From Alistipes sp. (GTDB lineage: Bacteria > Bacteroidota > Bacteroidia > Bacteroidales > Rikenellaceae): a stretch of 46,006 nt of DNA. The position numbers and the translations under genes are program-made. The stretch covers positions 1-46,006 of the forward strand of contig JAGBXX010000022.1 of the NCBI GenBank assembly GCA_017629035.1, read 5' to 3'. The notes beneath the pieces are model-generated. The model saw nothing but the letters and a program-made list of their open reading frames with translations. It searched no databases and was not told where the DNA came from. Numbering within the stretch: the first letter of the stretch is position 1; every line of letters begins with the position of its first letter. Shown in pieces: positions 2,734 to 14,301 of the stretch.

Positions 2734-4071
2734 TTAGCTCTCCTTAATCATTAGGTTAATACCGTCGCGAAGAATCTGCTGCATCTCGATCTTTGATGGA
2801 TCAACAAACTCGCAGAGTGCCAAATCCTCAGGAAGAACCTCGTACAAACCAAGATTCTCCATCTTGTCGAGATCCTTAACAAGGCACGCCTTCAACAAAT
2901 AAGCTACATATACATCCATTGGCAAGTAGTTCTCATAAAGACCTGTTACCACGAATGGACGCTCACCACCATTGAGGTTAGTATCGAGCTTGTACTCCTT
3001 CTTAGGGCAGAGCCATGAGAAGTATGCACGTGATACTGAGAAGCGGTGGAAACGTGGCATTGCCCAACCGAGCAACTCGTAAACGTTACCCTCAGGGAGC
3101 AATGTGATCATGTTAGCGTCAGCAGCGATATAGCCATCAGCAGCTGTTGTGCGGCCAGTGAGTGCGTTACCAGAGATAACACGTACGTTCTCCTTAACCT
3201 TGCCGATGATTGACTCTACTGCAGCACCAGCGATGATGCGCTTGTAGCATGGCTTCTCAGCCTCGCTACCAGCAACAACGATAGTCTTAGACATATCGAA
3301 CTTGCCTGTGCGTACCATGCGGCCGATGATTGCAACATCCTGGATATTTACAGTCCACACGATATCGCCCTTAGCAATACGGTCGATGTGGTGGATCTGA
3401 ACACCCACGTTACCTACAGGGTGCTTACCAGAGAATGTGTGGTACTCCACGCCCTTAATCTCAGACATGAAACCCTCAGCGCCCTTGCGAGCTGAGAGGT
3501 GCACCTTGCCCTCAGTAAGGCGGCTAAGGAGTGCCATACCTGCCTCGATGTTCTCACGCTCAGAGGCCAAGGCGAAGTTGTAGTCTGGGGCCAAAGGAGC
3601 TGAGTCGAAGGCTGAAACAAAGATTGCCTTAGGCTGTGCGTCGGGGTTAGCGATAACACCATAAGGACGCTCAACGATACGAGTCCAAAGACCCGACTCG
3701 AGCAACATCTCAACAATCTCCGAACGCTCTGCCTTGGCTGGGTCAACCACCTTAATAGCCTTAGCCACCTGCTCCTGGTCTGGCTCTACGGCAACGTTGA
3801 GGAGCTTACGCTTCTCGCCACGGTTGATGGCCGAAACCACACCGCTAACAGGAGAAGTGAACAAGATGCGTGGGTTGTTCTTATCGAAGAACAAAGCGGC
3901 ACCTGCCTCTACCTTGTCGCCAACCTTAACCAACAGCTTTGGAGTAACGTTCTCATAATCCAGTGGGCTCACTGCATAAGACTTCGCCATAGGAGCGTTC
4001 TCCACGCGAAGCTCTGCCTTACCTGCCAGATTGATGTCGAGACCTTTACGTAAATTAATGTTTTTCGACAT
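2734..4071 (-). CDS. nqrA: Na+-translocating NADH:quinone reductase subunit A
   Basis: NqrA is the peripheral cytoplasmic subunit of Na+-NQR that contacts the quinone site. The 445-residue length matches the family. It opens with LRKGLDINLAGKAE and has the barrel-sandwich segment LLVKVGDKVEAGAALFFDK, similar to RnfC and lipoyl-like domains. The middle segment VHHIDR-type region and GDIVWTVNIQDVAIIGR are typical. It is the first gene of the operon and is preceded by a promoter-like sequence about 100 nt upstream, giving a leader of roughly 95 nt. The start is ATG at 4071; no Shine-Dalgarno is seen, as is usual in Bacteroidetes. Confidence 0.96.
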   Translation of the reverse strand: MSKNINLRKGLDINLAGKAELRVENAPMAKSYAVSPLDYENVTPKLLVKVGDKVEAGAALFFDKNNPRILFTSPVSGVVSAINRGEKRKLLNVAVEPDQEQVAKAIKVVDPAKAERSEIVEMLLESGLWTRIVERPYGVIANPDAQPKAIFVSAFDSAPLAPDYNFALASERENIEAGMALLSRLTEGKVHLSARKGAEGFMSEIKGVEYHTFSGKHPVGNVGVQIHHIDRIAKGDIVWTVNIQDVAIIGRMVRTGKFDMSKTIVVAGSEAEKPCYKRIIAGAAVESIIGKVKENVRVISGNALTGRTTAADGYIAADANMITLLPEGNVYELLGWAMPRFHRFSVSRAYFSWLCPKKEYKLDTNLNGGERPFVVTGLYENYLPMDVYVAYLLKACLVKDLDKMENLGLYEVLPEDLALCEFVDPSKIEMQQILRDGINLMIKES

Positions 4072-4168
4072 AAAAACTGTTTGTTAGATTAATGATTTTA
4101 ACTATTTTGTTTATGTTTGTGTCTATCGACTGCAAATTAACACCTCTGTTAGTAATTAAAATGCGCAC

Positions 4169-4198
4169 GAAGGTACGGATTTTTTTTCATCCAAACAA
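4169..4198 (-). promoter_or_regulatory. Probable promoter of the nqr operon
   Basis: On the minus strand a TTG (4198-4196) is followed after exactly 19 nt by TACCTTCG (4176-4169). This fits the Bacteroidetes vegetative promoter (TTTG, 19 nt, TAnnTTTG) with one mismatch in the -7 box. Transcription would start near 4165, giving nqrA a leader of about 95 nt that contains only a weak hairpin (TAACA/TGTTA). Confidence 0.55.
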
Positions 4199-4358
4199 CC
4201 ATTTTAGCGGATATTTGTAATAATTCTCTACATATTGTCCCAAACATCCAAAACTATCACGCCTGCAAACCTCGGACTACCTCCGAAGGATAAAACAAGA
4301 AGCATAAACAAAATAACCAAAAGTTTTTGACGGATTATGGTTTTTCGATAAAATTTCC
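4199..4358. other. Intergenic stretch between divergent nqr and tatD-like operons
   Basis: Together with the nqr leader this makes about 300 nt without a gene. It is A/T-rich with a small imperfect hairpin around CTCGGACTACCTCCGAAG. I see no riboswitch, small gene or operator that I can name. Confidence 0.4.
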
Positions 4359-4964: not shown

Positions 4965-5704
4965 ATAACTGGTTAGAGCGCACCGAGCTACTACTCGGAG
5001 AGGAGAAACTGGCGATGCTACGTGGTGCCAACGTCCTTGTTGTGGGCGTGGGTGGCGTGGGCGCCTATGCTGCCGAGATGATTGTTCGCTCGGGCGTAGG
5101 TCGCATGACCATTGCCGATGCCGACAAGGTGTCGCCAAGCAATATCAACCGCCAGCTTGTAGCCCTGCACTCCACCGTAGGACTTGAGAAGTGCGACATT
5201 CTGCGTGATAGATTGCTAGATATAAACCCCGAACTAAAGCTAAATATAGTCAACCGATTTATCAAGGACGACGAGACCGACGCACTACTCGATAGCGACA
5301 AATTTGACTATGTGGTAGATGCCATAGATACCCTCTCGCCCAAGCTCGCTCTAATCAAGGGAGCACTCGACCGTGGCATACCTCTAGTGAGCTCCATGGG
5401 GGCAGGCGCCAAGACCGACCCAACACTCATGGAGATTAAGGATATCGCCAAAACACACCACTGCCCACTGGCGCACATGCTGCGCAAACGCCTACATAAA
5501 ATAGGCATACGTCGAGGCTTCAAGGCTGTATTCTCGCCCGAGCCTGTGCGCGAGGGTGCGATGATTCTCTGCGAGGAGCAGAACAAGAAGTCGAACGTCG
5601 GCACAATATCCTACATCCCAGCCCTCTTCGGCATAGGATGCGCCTCGGTGGTCATACGTGGCCTCGTGGGCGAGTTGGAGGGCGACAATAGTGAAGAAAA
5701 GTAA
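4961..5704 (+). CDS. tcdA: tRNA threonylcarbamoyladenosine dehydratase (TcdA/CsdL family)
   Basis: TcdA uses ATP to cyclise t6A37 to ct6A in ANN-decoding tRNAs. The 247-residue protein is an E1-like ThiF-fold ATPase. The nucleotide-binding GVGGVGAYAAEMIVRSG lies at about residues 29-45, followed by the adenylation motif DADKVSPSNINRQ (about 53-65). Downstream it has VVDAIDTLSPK and the family-typical KTDPT and SSMGAGAK stretches, which separate TcdA from MoeB and ThiF. It lacks the CxxC zinc pairs of MoeB and ThiF, in line with TcdA. It is the second gene of a three-gene plus-strand operon. Confidence 0.9.
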   Translation: MNNWLERTELLLGEEKLAMLRGANVLVVGVGGVGAYAAEMIVRSGVGRMTIADADKVSPSNINRQLVALHSTVGLEKCDILRDRLLDINPELKLNIVNRFIKDDETDALLDSDKFDYVVDAIDTLSPKLALIKGALDRGIPLVSSMGAGAKTDPTLMEIKDIAKTHHCPLAHMLRKRLHKIGIRRGFKAVFSPEPVREGAMILCEEQNKKSNVGTISYIPALFGIGCASVVIRGLVGELEGDNSEEK

Positions 5705-5724
5705 GAAACTAAAAAATAACCAAT

Positions 5725-6663
5725 ATGAAGAAAATAGTCTTTTTAGATGAGTACAGCATTGCTGGCCGTGACCTCACAAAGATTAGCTCACAGGGCGAGT
5801 ATATCGCATATAACAACACCACAAAAGAGCAGGTAGTAGAGCGCCTTAAGGGTGCCGATGTCGCCATTACCAACAAGGTGATGATCGACGGCGACACTAT
5901 GCGTCAACTCCCTGACCTTAAGCTTATTTGCGTGGCTGCAACAGGCATGAACAACGTAGATCTCGAGGCGGCAAAGGAGCTCGGTATCGAGGTTAAGAAT
6001 GCCGTTGGCTACTCGACAATCTCAGTTGCTGAGACAACACTTGCATCGGCACTTGCACTGGCTCGCAACATCGTATATTTCGACGAATATTTCCACGACG
6101 GCCGCTACTCTAAGGCAGACCGCGCCTTCTGCTACGACCGCCTAACATTCCAGATTAGCGGTAAGAAATGGGGTATCATCGGCCTTGGCAACATCGGCCG
6201 TGAGGTTGCTCGCCTGGCTTCGGCCTTTGGCTGCGAGGTGCGCTACTTCTCAACCTCGGGTGCTAAGCGTGAGGAGGCATACCCTGCAGTAGAGCTCGAC
6301 GAGCTGCTCAAGTGGAGCGACATCGTGTCGGTACACTCGCCACTCAACGAGCGTACACGAGGTCTTGTGGGTCGTCGTGAGCTCCAGCTTATGAAGCCTA
6401 CATCGTTGATTATCAACGTGGCACGTGGTGGTATCATCGACGAGGCAGCCCTTGCCGAGGCTCTCGACAATGGCTGGGTGGCAGCAGCAGCACTCGACGT
6501 ATTCTCAGTAGAGCCACTACGTGAGTCGCCACTCTACAACATCAAGGATCGCTACCGTCTTTTGGCCTCGCCACACAACGCATGGTCTGCTGCCGAGGCT
6601 ATCGACCGACTCATAGAGTGCGTTGCCGAGAACATACGTACTTGGCTCGAGAAGCAGGAGTAG
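5725..6663 (+). CDS. D-2-hydroxyacid dehydrogenase (NAD-dependent)
   Basis: An oxidoreductase interconverting a D-2-hydroxyacid and a 2-ketoacid with NAD(H). The 312-residue length is typical. The Rossmann glycine motif GIIGLGNIGRE is near residues 151-161. Catalytic residues are seen as the Arg in NVARGGIID, the Glu in the SVEPLRESPL segment, and the His in SPHNAW. Candidates include glycerate, hydroxypyruvate or phosphoglycerate dehydrogenase; there is no ACT domain, so it is not a long-form SerA. It follows tcdA after 20 nt and ends 19 nt before a strong terminator. Confidence 0.9.
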   Translation: MKKIVFLDEYSIAGRDLTKISSQGEYIAYNNTTKEQVVERLKGADVAITNKVMIDGDTMRQLPDLKLICVAATGMNNVDLEAAKELGIEVKNAVGYSTISVAETTLASALALARNIVYFDEYFHDGRYSKADRAFCYDRLTFQISGKKWGIIGLGNIGREVARLASAFGCEVRYFSTSGAKREEAYPAVELDELLKWSDIVSVHSPLNERTRGLVGRRELQLMKPTSLIINVARGGIIDEAALAEALDNGWVAAAALDVFSVEPLRESPLYNIKDRYRLLASPHNAWSAAEAIDRLIECVAENIRTWLEKQE

Positions 6664-11284: not shown

Positions 11285-11812
11285 ATGCGTAAATTACTCA
11301 ACGAAGAACTTGGTCGCCCAACGATCGAGGAGTATGCAACGGTCCAGAAACTCCCCGTTGTAGTCGTCCTTGACAATGTGCGTTCTGCGCAGAACGTAGG
11401 CTCGTTCTTCCGCACTGCCGACGCCTTTGGCATCGAGCGCATCGAGCTCTGCGGCATCAGTTGCACACCGCCCAACCGCGAGATTCACAAGACGGCGCTG
11501 GGTGCTGAGCTAAGTGTTGCATGGTCGTATCACCCCACCACGCTCGAGTGCGTCGAGAAGCTCAGAGTGGAGGGATACAAGATTATCGCCGTGGAGCAGA
11601 TCGAGGGCTCAACAATGCTCAACGATTTTCGTGCCGAGAGCGGCGTGAAGTATGCTCTTGTCTTTGGCAACGAGGTCGAGGGTGTGGACCAGGCCATTGC
11701 CGATGTTGTCGACTCGGCTATCGAGATTCCACAGGTGGGTATCAAACACTCGCTCAACGTATCGGTATCGGCCGGCGTTCTTATGTGGGAGATGTTCAGA
11801 CAGTTACGATAG
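11285..11812 (+). CDS. TrmH/SpoU-family RNA 2'-O-methyltransferase
   Basis: A SAM-dependent RNA ribose methyltransferase with the trefoil-knot SPOUT fold. The 175-residue chain carries the three family motifs: LDNVRSAQNVGSFFRTADAF (motif 1, with Asn and Arg), LVFGNEVEGVDQ (motif 2) and IPQVGIKHSLNVSVSAGVL (motif 3). There is no extra N-terminal RNA-binding domain, so it is closest to minimal TrmH or TrmL-like proteins; the target nucleotide cannot be read from sequence. It is followed 86 nt later by tRNA-Ser(GCT), which has its own promoter. Confidence 0.88.
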   Translation: MRKLLNEELGRPTIEEYATVQKLPVVVVLDNVRSAQNVGSFFRTADAFGIERIELCGISCTPPNREIHKTALGAELSVAWSYHPTTLECVEKLRVEGYKIIAVEQIEGSTMLNDFRAESGVKYALVFGNEVEGVDQAIADVVDSAIEIPQVGIKHSLNVSVSAGVLMWEMFRQLR

Positions 11813-11838
11813 GTGAATGTAAAAAAAGTTGGTAAAAT

Positions 11839-11869
11839 TTTGCAGAAACCAAAATAAGTCGTATATTTG
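11839..11869 (+). promoter_or_regulatory. Promoter of tRNA-Ser
   Basis: TTTG (11839-11842), exactly 19 nt, then TATATTTG (11862-11869): a perfect match to the Bacteroidetes promoter. Transcription would begin near 11873, about 25 nt before the mature tRNA end. Confidence 0.75.
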
Positions 11870-11898
11870 CACCGCTTTTGTGTTCAAAAGTGGTTTAA

Positions 11899-11985
11899 GG
11901 AGGGTTGGGTGAGTGGCTTAAACCAGCAGTTTGCTAAACTGCCGATATCGTAAGGTATCCGCTGGTTCGAATCCAGTGCCCTCCG
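11899..11985 (+). tRNA. tRNA-Ser (anticodon GCT)
   Basis: An 87-nt tRNA with a 7-bp acceptor (GGAGGGT with GCCCTCC, one G-U pair) and discriminator G as in serine tRNAs. The anticodon stem is GCAGT/ACTGC with loop TTGCTAA, so the anticodon is GCT, reading AGC and AGU. A long variable arm (about positions 11944-11961) confirms a class II tRNA, and the T-arm carries TTCGAAT. CCA is not encoded. The 3' part is repeated twice downstream. Confidence 0.96.
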
Positions 11986-11987
11986 CA
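11966..11987 (+). repeat. tRNA-Ser tail direct repeat, copy 1 (inside the tRNA)
   Basis: This 22-nt segment runs from the T-loop to two bases past the discriminator base. It recurs exactly at 12211-12232 and in a shortened form at 12400-12415. A tRNA T-loop-to-3'-end core is the usual attachment site of tyrosine-recombinase mobile elements. Confidence 0.9.
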
Positions 11988-11993
11988 AATATT

Positions 11994-12100
11994 AAGCAGA
12001 GCAGACGACTAATGGTCGTCTGTTTTTGTTTTATGGTGGTCTTAAAATGCAAGCATTAAACCGCCATGAAAACAAAAATGCCGGAGGCAATGCTCTGCTT
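11994..12100. repeat. Foldable module A: three-way-junction inverted repeats after tRNA-Ser
   Basis: The outer stem pairs 11994-12001 with 12093-12100 (8 bp, perfect). Immediately inside is a hairpin, 12002-12009 with 12015-12022 (8 bp, perfect). Directly after it the T-rich arm 12023-12040 pairs with 12060-12078 over 18 bp with one G-U and one bulged G. The hairpin plus T-run doubles as an intrinsic terminator for tRNA-Ser. Function beyond termination is unknown. Confidence 0.7.
12002..12032 (+). terminator. Terminator of tRNA-Ser
   Basis: An 8-bp perfect hairpin (CAGACGAC / GTCGTCTG, 5-nt loop) followed by TTTTTGTTTT, 16 nt after the tRNA end. Confidence 0.85.
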
Positions 12101-12136
12101 GTGCATCGAGACTGATTACTCACTTAAGTGCTGGTT

Positions 12137-12197
12137 GAGCCGATAATATATGGTTTATAGCGCAGGTTAGACCTGCACTTTTTTTGTGTATCGGCTC
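12137..12197. repeat. Foldable module B: nested inverted repeat with terminator-like core
   Basis: The outer arms GAGCCGATA (12137-12145) and TATCGGCTC (12189-12197) are perfect complements. Inside is the hairpin GCAGGT-TAG-ACCTGC (12162-12176) followed by seven T (12179-12185). It lies just upstream of the second tRNA-tail copy. No gene is seen here. Confidence 0.65.
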
Positions 12198-12210
12198 TAT
12201 TGCTTTGCAA

Positions 12211-12232
12211 TTCGAATCCAGTGCCCTCCGCA
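12211..12232 (+). repeat. tRNA-Ser tail direct repeat, copy 2
   Basis: An exact 22-nt copy of 11966-11987, 245 nt further on. The bases upstream (TCTATTGCTTTGCAA) do not resemble the rest of a tRNA, so it is a tail fragment and not a second tRNA gene. Confidence 0.92.
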
Positions 12233-12237
12233 TCAAA

Positions 12238-12355
12238 AGTAATGTAATGCAAGACTCACACATGCGAGTCTTTTTTTTGTTATTAGCTTATGCTTGTTTA
12301 CATGCAATATGCTAATAACAAGAAAAATAGACACATAGTGGCGCATTACATTACT
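12238..12355. repeat. Foldable module C: three-way-junction inverted repeats, same design as module A
   Basis: Outer arms 12238-12250 and 12343-12355 are perfect 13-bp complements. Directly inside is the hairpin AAGACTC/GAGTCTT (12251-12257 with 12266-12272). Then a T-run leads into TTGTTATTAGC (12277-12287), which pairs with GCTAATAACAA (12311-12321), the pairing extending across T-run and A-run. Layout, order and distance from the preceding tRNA tail (about 5-6 nt) match module A although the bases differ. Confidence 0.7.
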
Positions 12356-12373
12356 CTTGCTAATTATGGTTAA

Positions 12374-12415
12374 ACTGGATGGGCGAGCATAGCGAAGCCA
12401 ATCCAGTGCCCGCAA
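12374..12415 (+). repeat. Inverted repeat plus decayed third tRNA-Ser tail copy
   Basis: AATCCAGTGCCC (12400-12411) followed by GCAA equals the tRNA tail with three bases (TCC) deleted. ACTGGAT (12374-12380) upstream is the complement of ATCCAGT (12401-12407), making a hairpin. It reads as an older, degraded copy of the tail repeat. Confidence 0.6.
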
Positions 12416-12428
12416 TAAGTATACCCAC

Positions 12429-12461
12429 AAAAAAAGTAGCCACTCGCTTGAGTGGCTACTT
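12429..12461 (-). terminator. Terminator of ygiQ
   Basis: A perfect 12-bp stem (12461-12450 with 12445-12434) and a 4-nt loop, followed on the minus strand by a run of T (12435-12429). It sits 11 nt after the ygiQ stop codon. Confidence 0.92.
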
Positions 12462-12471
12462 CTGTTTTATG

Positions 12472-14301
12472 CTATCGTCTGCGCTTAGGCGCTGGGCGTG
12501 ACGAGCCTTGTGGTGCAGGGCGACCAGCGGGGCGCTGAGGTGCTCGGCCCTCACTACGGCCTGGGCGACGACCCTCAGTTTTTGGTTTTGCCTCGGGGAG
12601 TTTACCACCAAAGAAATAACTCTTCTGCTGACGCTTTTCATCCTGAGAGCGAGCAACATATATCTTCTCGCCCGTATATGGATTCTCGCCCATATAGAAC
12701 ATCGTCGACGATAGTGTCATAGGCGTAGGCGTGAGATCCTGCACCTGCTCGAGACTAAAGTTGAGGTTGCCCAGCACCTTACGTGCCAGCGAGGCCATAT
12801 CACGCTCCTCACAGCCAGGGTGCGACGATATAAAATATGGTATAAGCTGATAGTTCAGACCCTCACGACGGCACACCTGCTTGAAGCGTGAGTTCATCTT
12901 CTCAAAGAGCGTAAACGAGGGTTTGCGCATAAGGTTGAGCACATGATCCTCGGTATGCTCGGGGGCCACCTTAAGACGTCCCGAGGTGTGGTGCTTGACA
13001 ACGGTCTCGAAGTAGTTCGACTCGTCGAAGAGGTCGTAGCGAATACCACTACCCACAAAGGCACGCTTAATACCCTTCACGCCACGCACTTTGGCATATA
13101 GATCGAGCAGCGGCTTGTGGTCGTTGTTCATATTTGGGCAGAGCTTGGGGTGGAGGCACGATGGGCGCTTACACCTCTTGCAGAGCTCCTCATTTTTGCC
13201 CGACATACGGTACATATTAGCCGACGGAGCACCGATATCCGAGAGGTAACCCTTGAAGTCGGGCATCTTTGTAACACGCTCAACCTCAGCGATGATAGAG
13301 CGCTCGGAGCGTGACGAGATAAACTTACCCTGGTGTGCCGAGATGGTGCAGAACGAGCAGCCACCAAAGCATCCACGGTGGATATTTATCGAGTGCTTAA
13401 TCATCTCCCATGCAGGGATGTCGCCCTTACCCTTGTAGCGAGGGTGTGGCGCACGCTCATAGGGCAGGTCGAACGAGTGGTCGAGCTCCTCGGTCGTGAG
13501 GCGCTCATAGGGCGGCGTGATCACGACATATCTATCTCCCACAGGCTCAACAAGCGTAGTCTCGCACTGCATCATATTGCTCAGGATCTCGATATCGCAG
13601 AAGTTCTTGCCAAATTTGTGCTTATCCTCGACACACTCCTCATAGGAGTTGAGCACTATTGTCTTGCCGTTATATAGCTTCTCGACATACTCTCTATCGG
13701 CCATAAAGCCCACCTGGCGCAAGCCACGCAACAGCTTCATATTAAAGCCATTACGTAGAGCCTTGGCCACATCACGGATAACCTTATCGCCCATGCCATA
13801 CACGAGCAGGTCGGCTCCCGACGTAGCGAGGATAGACTCTCGGAGCTTGTTGCTCCAGTAGTCGTAGTGTGTCAAGCGGCGCAGCGATGCCTCGATACCT
13901 CCCACAACAACAGGGGTATGCGGATATAGCTGCTTGAGAATCTTGGTATATGTATCTACCGTGCGGTCGGGGCGGAAGCCAGCCTTGCCCCCCGGCGTAT
14001 AGGCGTCATTAGAGCGCAGACGCAGGTTGGCAGTGTAGTGGTTGACCATGGAGTCCATGGCACCTGCCGACACGGCAAAGAACAAGCGTGGCTTACCCAG
14101 CTTCTTGAAGTCACGCAGGTCGTCACGCCAGTTGGGCTGCGGCACTATGGCCACACGATAGCCCTCGGCCTCGAGTATGCGACCGATCACCGCAGGGCCA
14201 AAGGCTGGGTGGTCGATATAGGCATCGCCCGAGAAGATAATCACGTCGAGCTCATCCCAACCACGGGCCTCGACCTCTTTGCTTGTTGTTGGCAGAAACA
14301 T
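12472..14301 (-). CDS. ygiQ: YgiQ-family radical SAM protein
   Basis: A 609-residue radical SAM protein of the YgiQ (UPF0313) family, whose reaction is not established. It has an N-terminal domain typical of the family (DVIIFSGDAYIDHPAFGPAVIGR), then the radical SAM CxxxCxxC motif HRGCFGGCSFC at about residues 308-318. A second Cys-rich region (CKRCKRPSCLHPKLCPNM), probably for an auxiliary cluster, follows. The C-terminal 35 residues form a Pro/Arg/Gly-rich basic tail ending PAPKRRR, suggestive of nucleic-acid or ribosome binding but not diagnostic. It ends at a strong terminator and is 37 nt downstream of rluD, so it may be the last gene of that transcript. Confidence 0.92.
   Translation of the reverse strand: MFLPTTSKEVEARGWDELDVIIFSGDAYIDHPAFGPAVIGRILEAEGYRVAIVPQPNWRDDLRDFKKLGKPRLFFAVSAGAMDSMVNHYTANLRLRSNDAYTPGGKAGFRPDRTVDTYTKILKQLYPHTPVVVGGIEASLRRLTHYDYWSNKLRESILATSGADLLVYGMGDKVIRDVAKALRNGFNMKLLRGLRQVGFMADREYVEKLYNGKTIVLNSYEECVEDKHKFGKNFCDIEILSNMMQCETTLVEPVGDRYVVITPPYERLTTEELDHSFDLPYERAPHPRYKGKGDIPAWEMIKHSINIHRGCFGGCSFCTISAHQGKFISSRSERSIIAEVERVTKMPDFKGYLSDIGAPSANMYRMSGKNEELCKRCKRPSCLHPKLCPNMNNDHKPLLDLYAKVRGVKGIKRAFVGSGIRYDLFDESNYFETVVKHHTSGRLKVAPEHTEDHVLNLMRKPSFTLFEKMNSRFKQVCRREGLNYQLIPYFISSHPGCEERDMASLARKVLGNLNFSLEQVQDLTPTPMTLSSTMFYMGENPYTGEKIYVARSQDEKRQQKSYFFGGKLPEAKPKTEGRRPGRSEGRAPQRPAGRPAPQGSSRPAPKRRR

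Follow-up and report, generated by a model that had tools for sequence, protein, structure and literature searches.

Short gene-free palindromic units behind tRNA genes of ruminant-gut bacteria: a candidate family of mobile DNA elements

The tRNA-Ser(GCT) gene of an Alistipes sp. contig is followed by an array of two units which, with a probability that we put at roughly 60%, are short palindromic DNA elements, non-coding, mobile and specific to the genus, that insert into tRNA T-arms. The window is the whole stretch of 46,006 nucleotides that was analysed. The units sit directly after C74 and leave the tRNA whole; a second copy of T54-C74, exact or decayed, then follows. They bring their own terminator hairpin, long palindromes and a conserved end composed of a T-stem-matched strand and a structured insert, and in at least one case closely similar units lie behind different tRNAs, each with the local T-stem and tail letters. 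Short, foldable, gene-free DNA is in this way found behind many different tRNA genes in ruminant-gut bacteria, where the tRNA stays intact, and the units lend themselves to studying how folded DNA is recognised where no dedicated recombinase is obvious.

tRNA genes are classic landing sites of mobile DNA, and direct repeats running from the T-loop to the 3' end are a known mark of tRNA-targeting integrative elements (phages, ICEs, tycheposons), in which the tRNA 3' end forms the direct repeat and the tRNA is kept intact. To our knowledge, the known elements keep to one or a few tRNAs, since a matching tail must be carried. The present units are likewise flanked by a direct repeat of the tRNA 3' end; they differ from integrative elements in being about 160-320 bp long, in having no integrase gene inside and in belonging to a single family found behind 24 tRNA kinds. 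That so many kinds are followed by the right tail, with the gene intact, points to copying of the target at insertion and not to a carried att site.

The tRNA-Ser(GCT) locus and the anatomy of its units

ARAGORN and Rfam identify one tRNA gene in the 46-kb window, that for tRNA-Ser(GCT) (Table 1). The 22-mer TTCGAATCCAGTGCCCTCCGCA, which runs from the T-loop to one base beyond C74, occurs in exact copies at 11966-11987 and 12211-12232. A third copy aligns at 12396-12417 with 68% ungapped identity; its usable part, 12400-12413, reads AATCCAGTGCCCGC and equals CCCTCCGC minus TCC. With up to three mismatches allowed, the 21-mer T54-C74 matched two sites in the window and none in 100 dinucleotide shuffles, a control that rules out chance repeats as the source of the tails (0/100). 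The original prediction of a tRNA-Ser(GCT) gene with two more copies of its tail, one with a 3-nt deletion, was confirmed by ARAGORN, Rfam, the exact repeat and the shuffles. The unit spacings that it gave, 245 and 185 bp, are correct, and the units are gene-free, the ORF search yielding no frame of at least 80 amino acids between 11836 and 12471. It had recorded the tails alone; the units also bear terminator-like hairpins and long palindromes. Four terminator-like hairpins fall within 11800-12520, against 0.7 expected. A SpoU-type RNA methylase is encoded upstream of the locus (11285-11812), and downstream a radical SAM protein (Radical_SAM_N, DUF3362; 12472-14301) converges on it.

Table 1. 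Features of the tRNA-Ser(GCT) locus in window coordinates.
Feature	Position	Strand	Evidence
tRNA-Ser(GCT), ends with encoded C74; insertion target	11899..11986	+	ARAGORN 11899-11986, Rfam 11899-11985
Tail T54-C74, copy 1, within the intact tRNA-Ser	11966..11986	+	Repeat search and shuffle test
Unit A, 224 bp: terminator hairpin, nested palindrome, motif A	11987..12210	+	Borders from other loci; model R1 match 12111-12219
Unit A outer palindrome, AAGCAGAGCA..TGCTCTGCTT, around terminator hairpin 12002-12022 and a second long hairpin	11994..12100	.	DNA fold z ~ -7.5 on either strand
Motif A	12130..12225	+	Covariance model, pair counts, DNA fold
Tail T54-C74 of tRNA-Ser, copy 2, exact	12211..12231	+	Repeat search and shuffle test
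Unit B: terminator hairpin 12251-12272, palindrome 12234-12250/12343-12359, short motif B from 12375	12232..12399	+	
Motif B end: CTGG-A-TGGGCG hairpin AGCC-AAT-CCAG and decayed tail 12400-12413 (3-nt deletion)	12375..12413	+	
Terminator-like hairpin past the last tail, probably the native tRNA-Ser terminator	12434..12461	+	Hairpin scan

Motif A is made up of a T-stem-like strand, a helix P1 enclosing a hairpin P2, and a hairpin P3. In the window these elements are the strand GCTGG (12130-12134), P1 (12137-12145/12189-12197), P2 (12162-12176) and P3 (12200-12210), and the CCAG of the tail closes the structure. The second unit terminates in the short motif B, which consists of GGCGTTAAGC, a hairpin and AGCCAATC and represents a second type of T-loop insert with the same logic. 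Each tail follows a T-stem-matched strand that carries one of two conserved inserts, motif A or motif B. Units behind Gln, Val and Asp tRNAs share one plan: the tRNA tail, a terminator hairpin with long palindromes, motif A and a copy of the tail of the same tRNA. The left unit ends show no sequence conservation between tRNAs, and terminal inverted repeats were not seen in units read by eye; internal palindromes are present.

Several variants were observed. In the Leu(tag) units of loci L142 and L179, the tRNA T-arm recurs in inverted orientation (AAAGGGACTCGAAC or a near form) directly upstream of motif A, and the Thr unit of locus L146 keeps a decayed form of this inverted copy. Behind a tRNA-Asp (L104, G137:C110), motif-A cores are directly repeated about 90-100 nt apart, so that the insert itself is in tandem.

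Distribution of the family and its position behind tRNA genes

A search of the window's genome (G000) with the locus returned seven matches. Two are the locus and its own palindrome; the remaining five are placed behind the tRNA genes Gln(CTG), Val(TAC), Asp(GTC), with two units in tandem, and Pro(TGG), where the match is short. A covariance model of motif A (R1) matched 78 of 121 sampled genomes of the genus, with at most 14 matches per genome and five in G000. Under strict filters, with nine candidates scored per genome, it matched none of 392 other genomes of the order (393 including G000; 207 genera). Motif B was found in 45 of the 121 genus genomes and in 0 of the 392 others, and a reversed-pattern control gave 0. 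The exact motif-A pattern occurred in 109 stretches of an 84,980-species collection. Of these 109, the 80 that were listed belong to 'Alistipes sp.' MAGs, which come from the cecum, colon or rectum of yak, buffalo, cattle, sheep, goat and deer, and to 'Rikenellaceae' MAGs whose record titles name no sample. The same pattern had 0 matches in IMG/VR. The family was not found described in the open-licence literature, a weak absence because open-licence papers only were covered.

The 80 listed stretches hold 87 copies of the exact pattern, 78 of them less than 800 nt behind a tRNA on the same strand. Seven more lie within 400 nt of the start of a stretch with no tRNA in the sequence, and the last two, 831 and 1763 nt behind a tRNA, are both inside the tail-copy arrays of that tRNA. 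A same-strand tRNA was likewise found upstream of 49 of 58 motif-A matches in 40 regions from seven high-copy genomes, where the first motif mostly lay 118-197 nt past the tRNA. Overall, motif-A units lie mostly 120-250 nt behind a tRNA on the same strand and typically end in the tail of that tRNA. The 156 distinct motif-A matches comprised 20 that were unparsed and 136 that were parsed (P2 in 109, the short class of P3 in 87); 103 had a usable, in-range upstream tRNA, and at least 24 tRNA kinds are represented among these 103. For motif B, a tRNA was present at most 900 nt upstream of 40 of 49 distinct copies, 20 of the 40 having an exact copy of C61-C74. Many tRNA genes of the genus encode C74 without C75-A76, and some, for example Asp, encode CCA; the tail copies retain the encoded C74.

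Some MAG contigs end in or near tandem units (for example L087, L070, L086, L090 and L094), so arrays may exceed the assembled length. A motif-A match lay at most about 450 nt from a contig end in 14 of 40 fetched regions, and unit arrays may break MAG assemblies at tRNAs.

Tail copies, transfer between tRNAs and folding

The 21-nt tail had no mismatch in 58 of 103 units and one in 17. In the 66 non-tandem units, defined by a sequence after C74 unlike the unit start, the unbroken tail match was exactly 21 nt in 17, 22-31 nt and thus beyond C74 in 13, and shorter than 21 nt in 36. Per-position identity to the tRNA, computed for 62 non-tandem units of the 103, was 0.68-1.0 over T54-C74 and 0.34 at the next base, slightly exceeding background for about six bases beyond C74; for the 37 units with at most one mismatch, 20 of the 21 positions reached 0.97 or more and the base that follows had 0.43. 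Upstream, identity to tRNA positions 53, 52, 51, 50 and 49 was 0.98, 1.0, 0.97, 0.82 and 0.5, and background thereafter. This profile indicates that the copied block is T54-C74, together with a T-stem-like 5' strand across the insert. In tails with a decayed acceptor part, the T-loop and the first T-stem bases tend to survive; the T-stem match fails at the tRNA-Cys locus L163 (GGG versus CCG).

Transfer between tRNAs is seen at locus L146, where a 226-bp unit (5521-5746) is flanked by exact Thr(cgt) tails (5500-5520 and 5747-5767) and followed, as judged by eye, by another GC-rich hairpin. Its interior and motif are identical to the Leu(tag) unit of L049 at 195 of 223 positions (87%) and to that of L142 at 184 of 221. 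A Leu(tag)-type unit between two Thr tails implies that the tail came from the target, like a 21-bp target-site duplication, since a tail carried by the element would be Leu-like. A unit tree that leaves out the T-stem strand and the tail, and has modest support (23 of 100 inner branches starred, 45 open), calls for at least 41 changes of tRNA kind among the 24 kinds; the range in 100 shuffles is 75-85. The units cluster by tRNA on this tree, so that much of the pattern reflects inheritance at the same tRNA, with repeated moves in addition.

The presence, kind and number of units differ between species in a comparison of species representatives, which are incomplete MAGs; identical units at identical places in all relatives, the outcome named as contrary to the original prediction, were not what was found. 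Thirteen of 17 tRNA-Cys loci were read by eye. Nine are unit-free over about 560 nt (G000, G017, G021, G003, G004, G025, G002 and two in G035), and units are present at L163, G024 (decayed), G011 and G030. With L163 as the query, the G000 Cys locus was matched by 7-115 (tRNA and tail) and 398-449 (tail 2 and 31 nt of flank, 89%), and the two matching segments share the 21-bp tail in G000, which is the pattern expected of an insertion that duplicates the tail. This supposed empty-site match rests on a 52-nt piece, 21 nt of which are tail, and the case is not clean because a second, truncated unit lies beyond in the L163 array.

G000 and G017 share 86% identity across 164 nt of the distal unit B and 69% in the interior of the proximal unit A; at 77.6%, the neighbouring gene is less conserved than unit B, a hint of a host role. 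Among 57 multi-tail loci, the proximal tail was closer in 37, equal in 12 and worse in 8, counts that include chance far matches. Such proximal-distal contrasts would fit either entry of units adjoining the tRNA or better upkeep there. Tandem duplications of whole units were found at L002, L005 and L268.

We propose that strand transfer is staggered, occurring before T54 on one strand and after C74 on the other, and that the gaps would then be filled in to leave the 21-bp target duplication. The element may be recognised as folded DNA, its T-stem-like strand aiding target recognition, and new units would usually enter adjoining the tRNA. The mover would be encoded elsewhere and would be something other than a resident phage-type integrase, Y1 transposase, reverse transcriptase or Cas1. 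A fuller version, which we advance tentatively, is a non-coding folded-DNA mobile element that enters nearly any tRNA gene by way of the shared T-arm, makes a fixed T54-C74 duplication, spares the tRNA through its own terminator, forms arrays that grow outwards, uses its T-stem-matched strand as a nucleic-acid guide and is moved by a housekeeping recombinase or other host enzyme.

The units might alternatively be integron-like cassettes, the folded end serving as a recombination site whose core is the T-stem, whose spacer is the T-loop and whose second stem is P1, and which a trans-acting tyrosine recombinase, perhaps XerC/XerD, joins to the tRNA T-arm. The folded DNA site of conserved shape, the arrays extending from a fixed anchor with the proximal tail closer in most multi-tail loci, and the ORF-bearing segments between some tails all agree with such an origin. 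We nevertheless consider it unlikely: a crossover in the T-loop would put the donor tail beside the new tRNA, whereas L146 has Thr tails on both sides, and the two PF00589 proteins of G000, which match XerD and XerC models best, reach only 143 and 131 bits where the TIGR02249 integron-integrase cut-off is 265, in a search confined to G000. In comparison with attC sites, DNA-type covariation and the fold are present, and the anatomy differs by the extra hairpin P3 and by conserved loop sequences.

Folded as single-stranded DNA, three pieces of the locus gave z = -3.5 to -7.5 across both strands, and in motif A of the window the T-stem-like helix closes P1 and P3 on both strands. With the motif-A alignment fitted to the model, 98.2% of cells pair, changes on both sides affect 198 cells against 58 in shuffles, and the covariation score is 0.378 against 0.105; two of the five covariation measures do not stand out from the shuffles (double-change pairs 6 versus 6.0, further types 17 versus 15.2). 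Mismatch counts were 8 G.T and 4 A.C in P1 (1224 cells), 0 and 4 in P2 (436 cells), and 1 and 2 in the short class of P3 (348 cells), giving 9 and 10 for P1-P3, and 110 and 140 in the interior palindromes. For 79 distinct tRNAs at these loci, the acceptor and T stems had 57 G.T and 3 A.C (Fisher p 1e-5 and 2e-14 for these contrasts, which are rough since cells share ancestry). The T-stem-like helix of motif A, with 71 G.T and 17 A.C in 650 cells, gives no DNA signal, and we ascribe the abundance of G.T there to letters derived from the tRNA. Outside the T-stem the helices covary in Watson-Crick fashion without the G.U excess of RNA, so that their fold is probably a DNA fold.

These counts bear on the idea that the units are a structured RNA, that is, a tRNA-linked regulatory or processing element spread by homologous recombination and kept for a host function. 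Its case consists of the shared strand of unit and tRNA in every case with an identified tRNA, the terminator hairpins, the strong conservation of motif A, an RNA fold of 11966-12232 with z = -5.3, and the pairs of motif B (4 G.T, 0 A.C). The lack of a G.U excess in P1-P3 and the interiors, set against the tRNA stems of the same loci, led us to reject RNA-level structure as the main reading, and the patchy presence of the units also speaks against it, leaving this explanation with a low probability, marginally below that of integron-like cassettes. At the locus the tRNA alone reaches its Rfam gathering score, all other matches falling below theirs, and a known RNA family was rejected on this ground.

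Search for the mover and relation to known systems

With PF00589 at a cut-off of E 1e-8, G000 (85% complete) yielded two matches, both best described by XerD and XerC models and both scoring under the equivalog cut-offs; G063 and G074 likewise have only two each, as do nine genomes with 4-11 motif-A matches. In 20 unit-rich genomes (at least five motif-A matches) and 20 motif-A-free genomes, all incomplete MAGs, a Y1 transposase was found in 0 and 1, RVT_1 in 7 and 6, and Cas1 in 8 and 3, respectively, Cas1 thus not being found in 12 unit-rich genomes. Apart from the XerC/XerD-like pair, none of the families searched (PF00589, Y1 transposase, RVT_1 and Cas1) was common to unit-rich genomes, a negative limited by MAG incompleteness. 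A motif scan of the fetched loci for RT-, recombinase- and DDE-like patterns revealed no integrase inside arrays; six of its ten recombinase-pattern matches look XerC-like by eye. A resident phage-type integrase, Y1 transposase, reverse transcriptase and Cas1 were rejected as necessary movers. An apparent association of many units with few integrases (Spearman -0.24, p 0.009) was dropped because it disappeared once genome size and completeness were controlled for (partial r -0.11, p 0.23). Neither an autonomous copy nor a transposase or an excision product was found, which counts against the mobile-element reading.

The original prediction had proposed tandem mini-elements that use the segment from the T-loop to the 3' end, which the analysis supports. 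Of the origins that it listed, non-autonomous satellites fit best. A resident phage-type integrase as a necessary mover is not supported, G000 having two XerD/XerC-like PF00589 proteins only and nine genomes with 4-11 motif-A matches likewise just two matches at E up to 1e-8. Scars of excised larger elements agree poorly with units that have a conserved anatomy of their own and lie behind 24 kinds of tRNA. More broadly, ordinary integrative elements that target tRNA genes with a tyrosine integrase could have left the units as scars or satellites, which would fit the direct repeats from T-loop to 3' end and the longer ORF-bearing segments between some tails; this is improbable given one family with matching tails behind 24 tRNA kinds, just two PF00589 matches in each of G000, G063 and G074, and 0 matches in IMG/VR. 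A degenerated tRNA array is not supported, in that no second tRNA was called and the unit beside the T-stem strand has background identity to the tRNA in a scripted comparison covering positions 40-48. Replication slippage or template switching at the T-arm hairpin, making tails and palindromes without any mobile element, would suit the near-perfect palindromes and the tandem whole-unit duplications and is very improbable, since a conserved motif behind unrelated tRNAs and a Leu-like unit behind Thr need element transfer.

The mobile-element reading places the units closest to the small palindromic repeats, above all YPAL/RU-2. In being short, non-coding, palindromic and dispersed, they resemble small palindromic repeats and bacterial MITEs. 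They share with YPAL/RU-2, RPE, ERIC and NEMIS/Correia the presence of inverted repeats, a short length and the lack of proteins; in YPAL the inverted repeats are internal (PMC2229807). YPAL of Yersinia is there described as having target duplications of 3-26 bp at targets that span or adjoin dyad symmetry (PMC2229807). Distinct from YPAL/RU-2 are the tRNA T-arm target, the duplication that is mostly T54-C74 (21 bp), the arrays and the end matching the local T-stem.

In folding logic the closest counterpart is the integron attC, a folded DNA site recognised by its shape (PMC2727003). Integron cassettes, as outlined there, resemble the units in standing in tandem from a fixed anchor, each ending in a folded DNA site (PMC2727003). 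The units differ in that no integron integrase was seen in G000, many tRNAs serve as the anchor, the tail is duplicated from the target and most units are gene-free. Casposons are closest in targeting tRNA 3' ends with duplication, which amounts to 14 bp in M. mazei (PMC6977970). In the units, by comparison, genes and terminal inverted repeats were not seen, the duplication is 21 bp, and Cas1 occurs in 8 of 20 unit-rich genomes.

Some arrays contain ORFs between tail copies, possibly captured or separately inserted segments. They lie at L179:4897-5340 (+) and 4056-4301 (-), L011 (reverse complement) 2213-2500 and L130:2977-3600 (-), and their products are a GIY-YIG domain protein, an 81-aa membrane-like ORF, a DUF4491 protein and a CAT acetyltransferase family protein.
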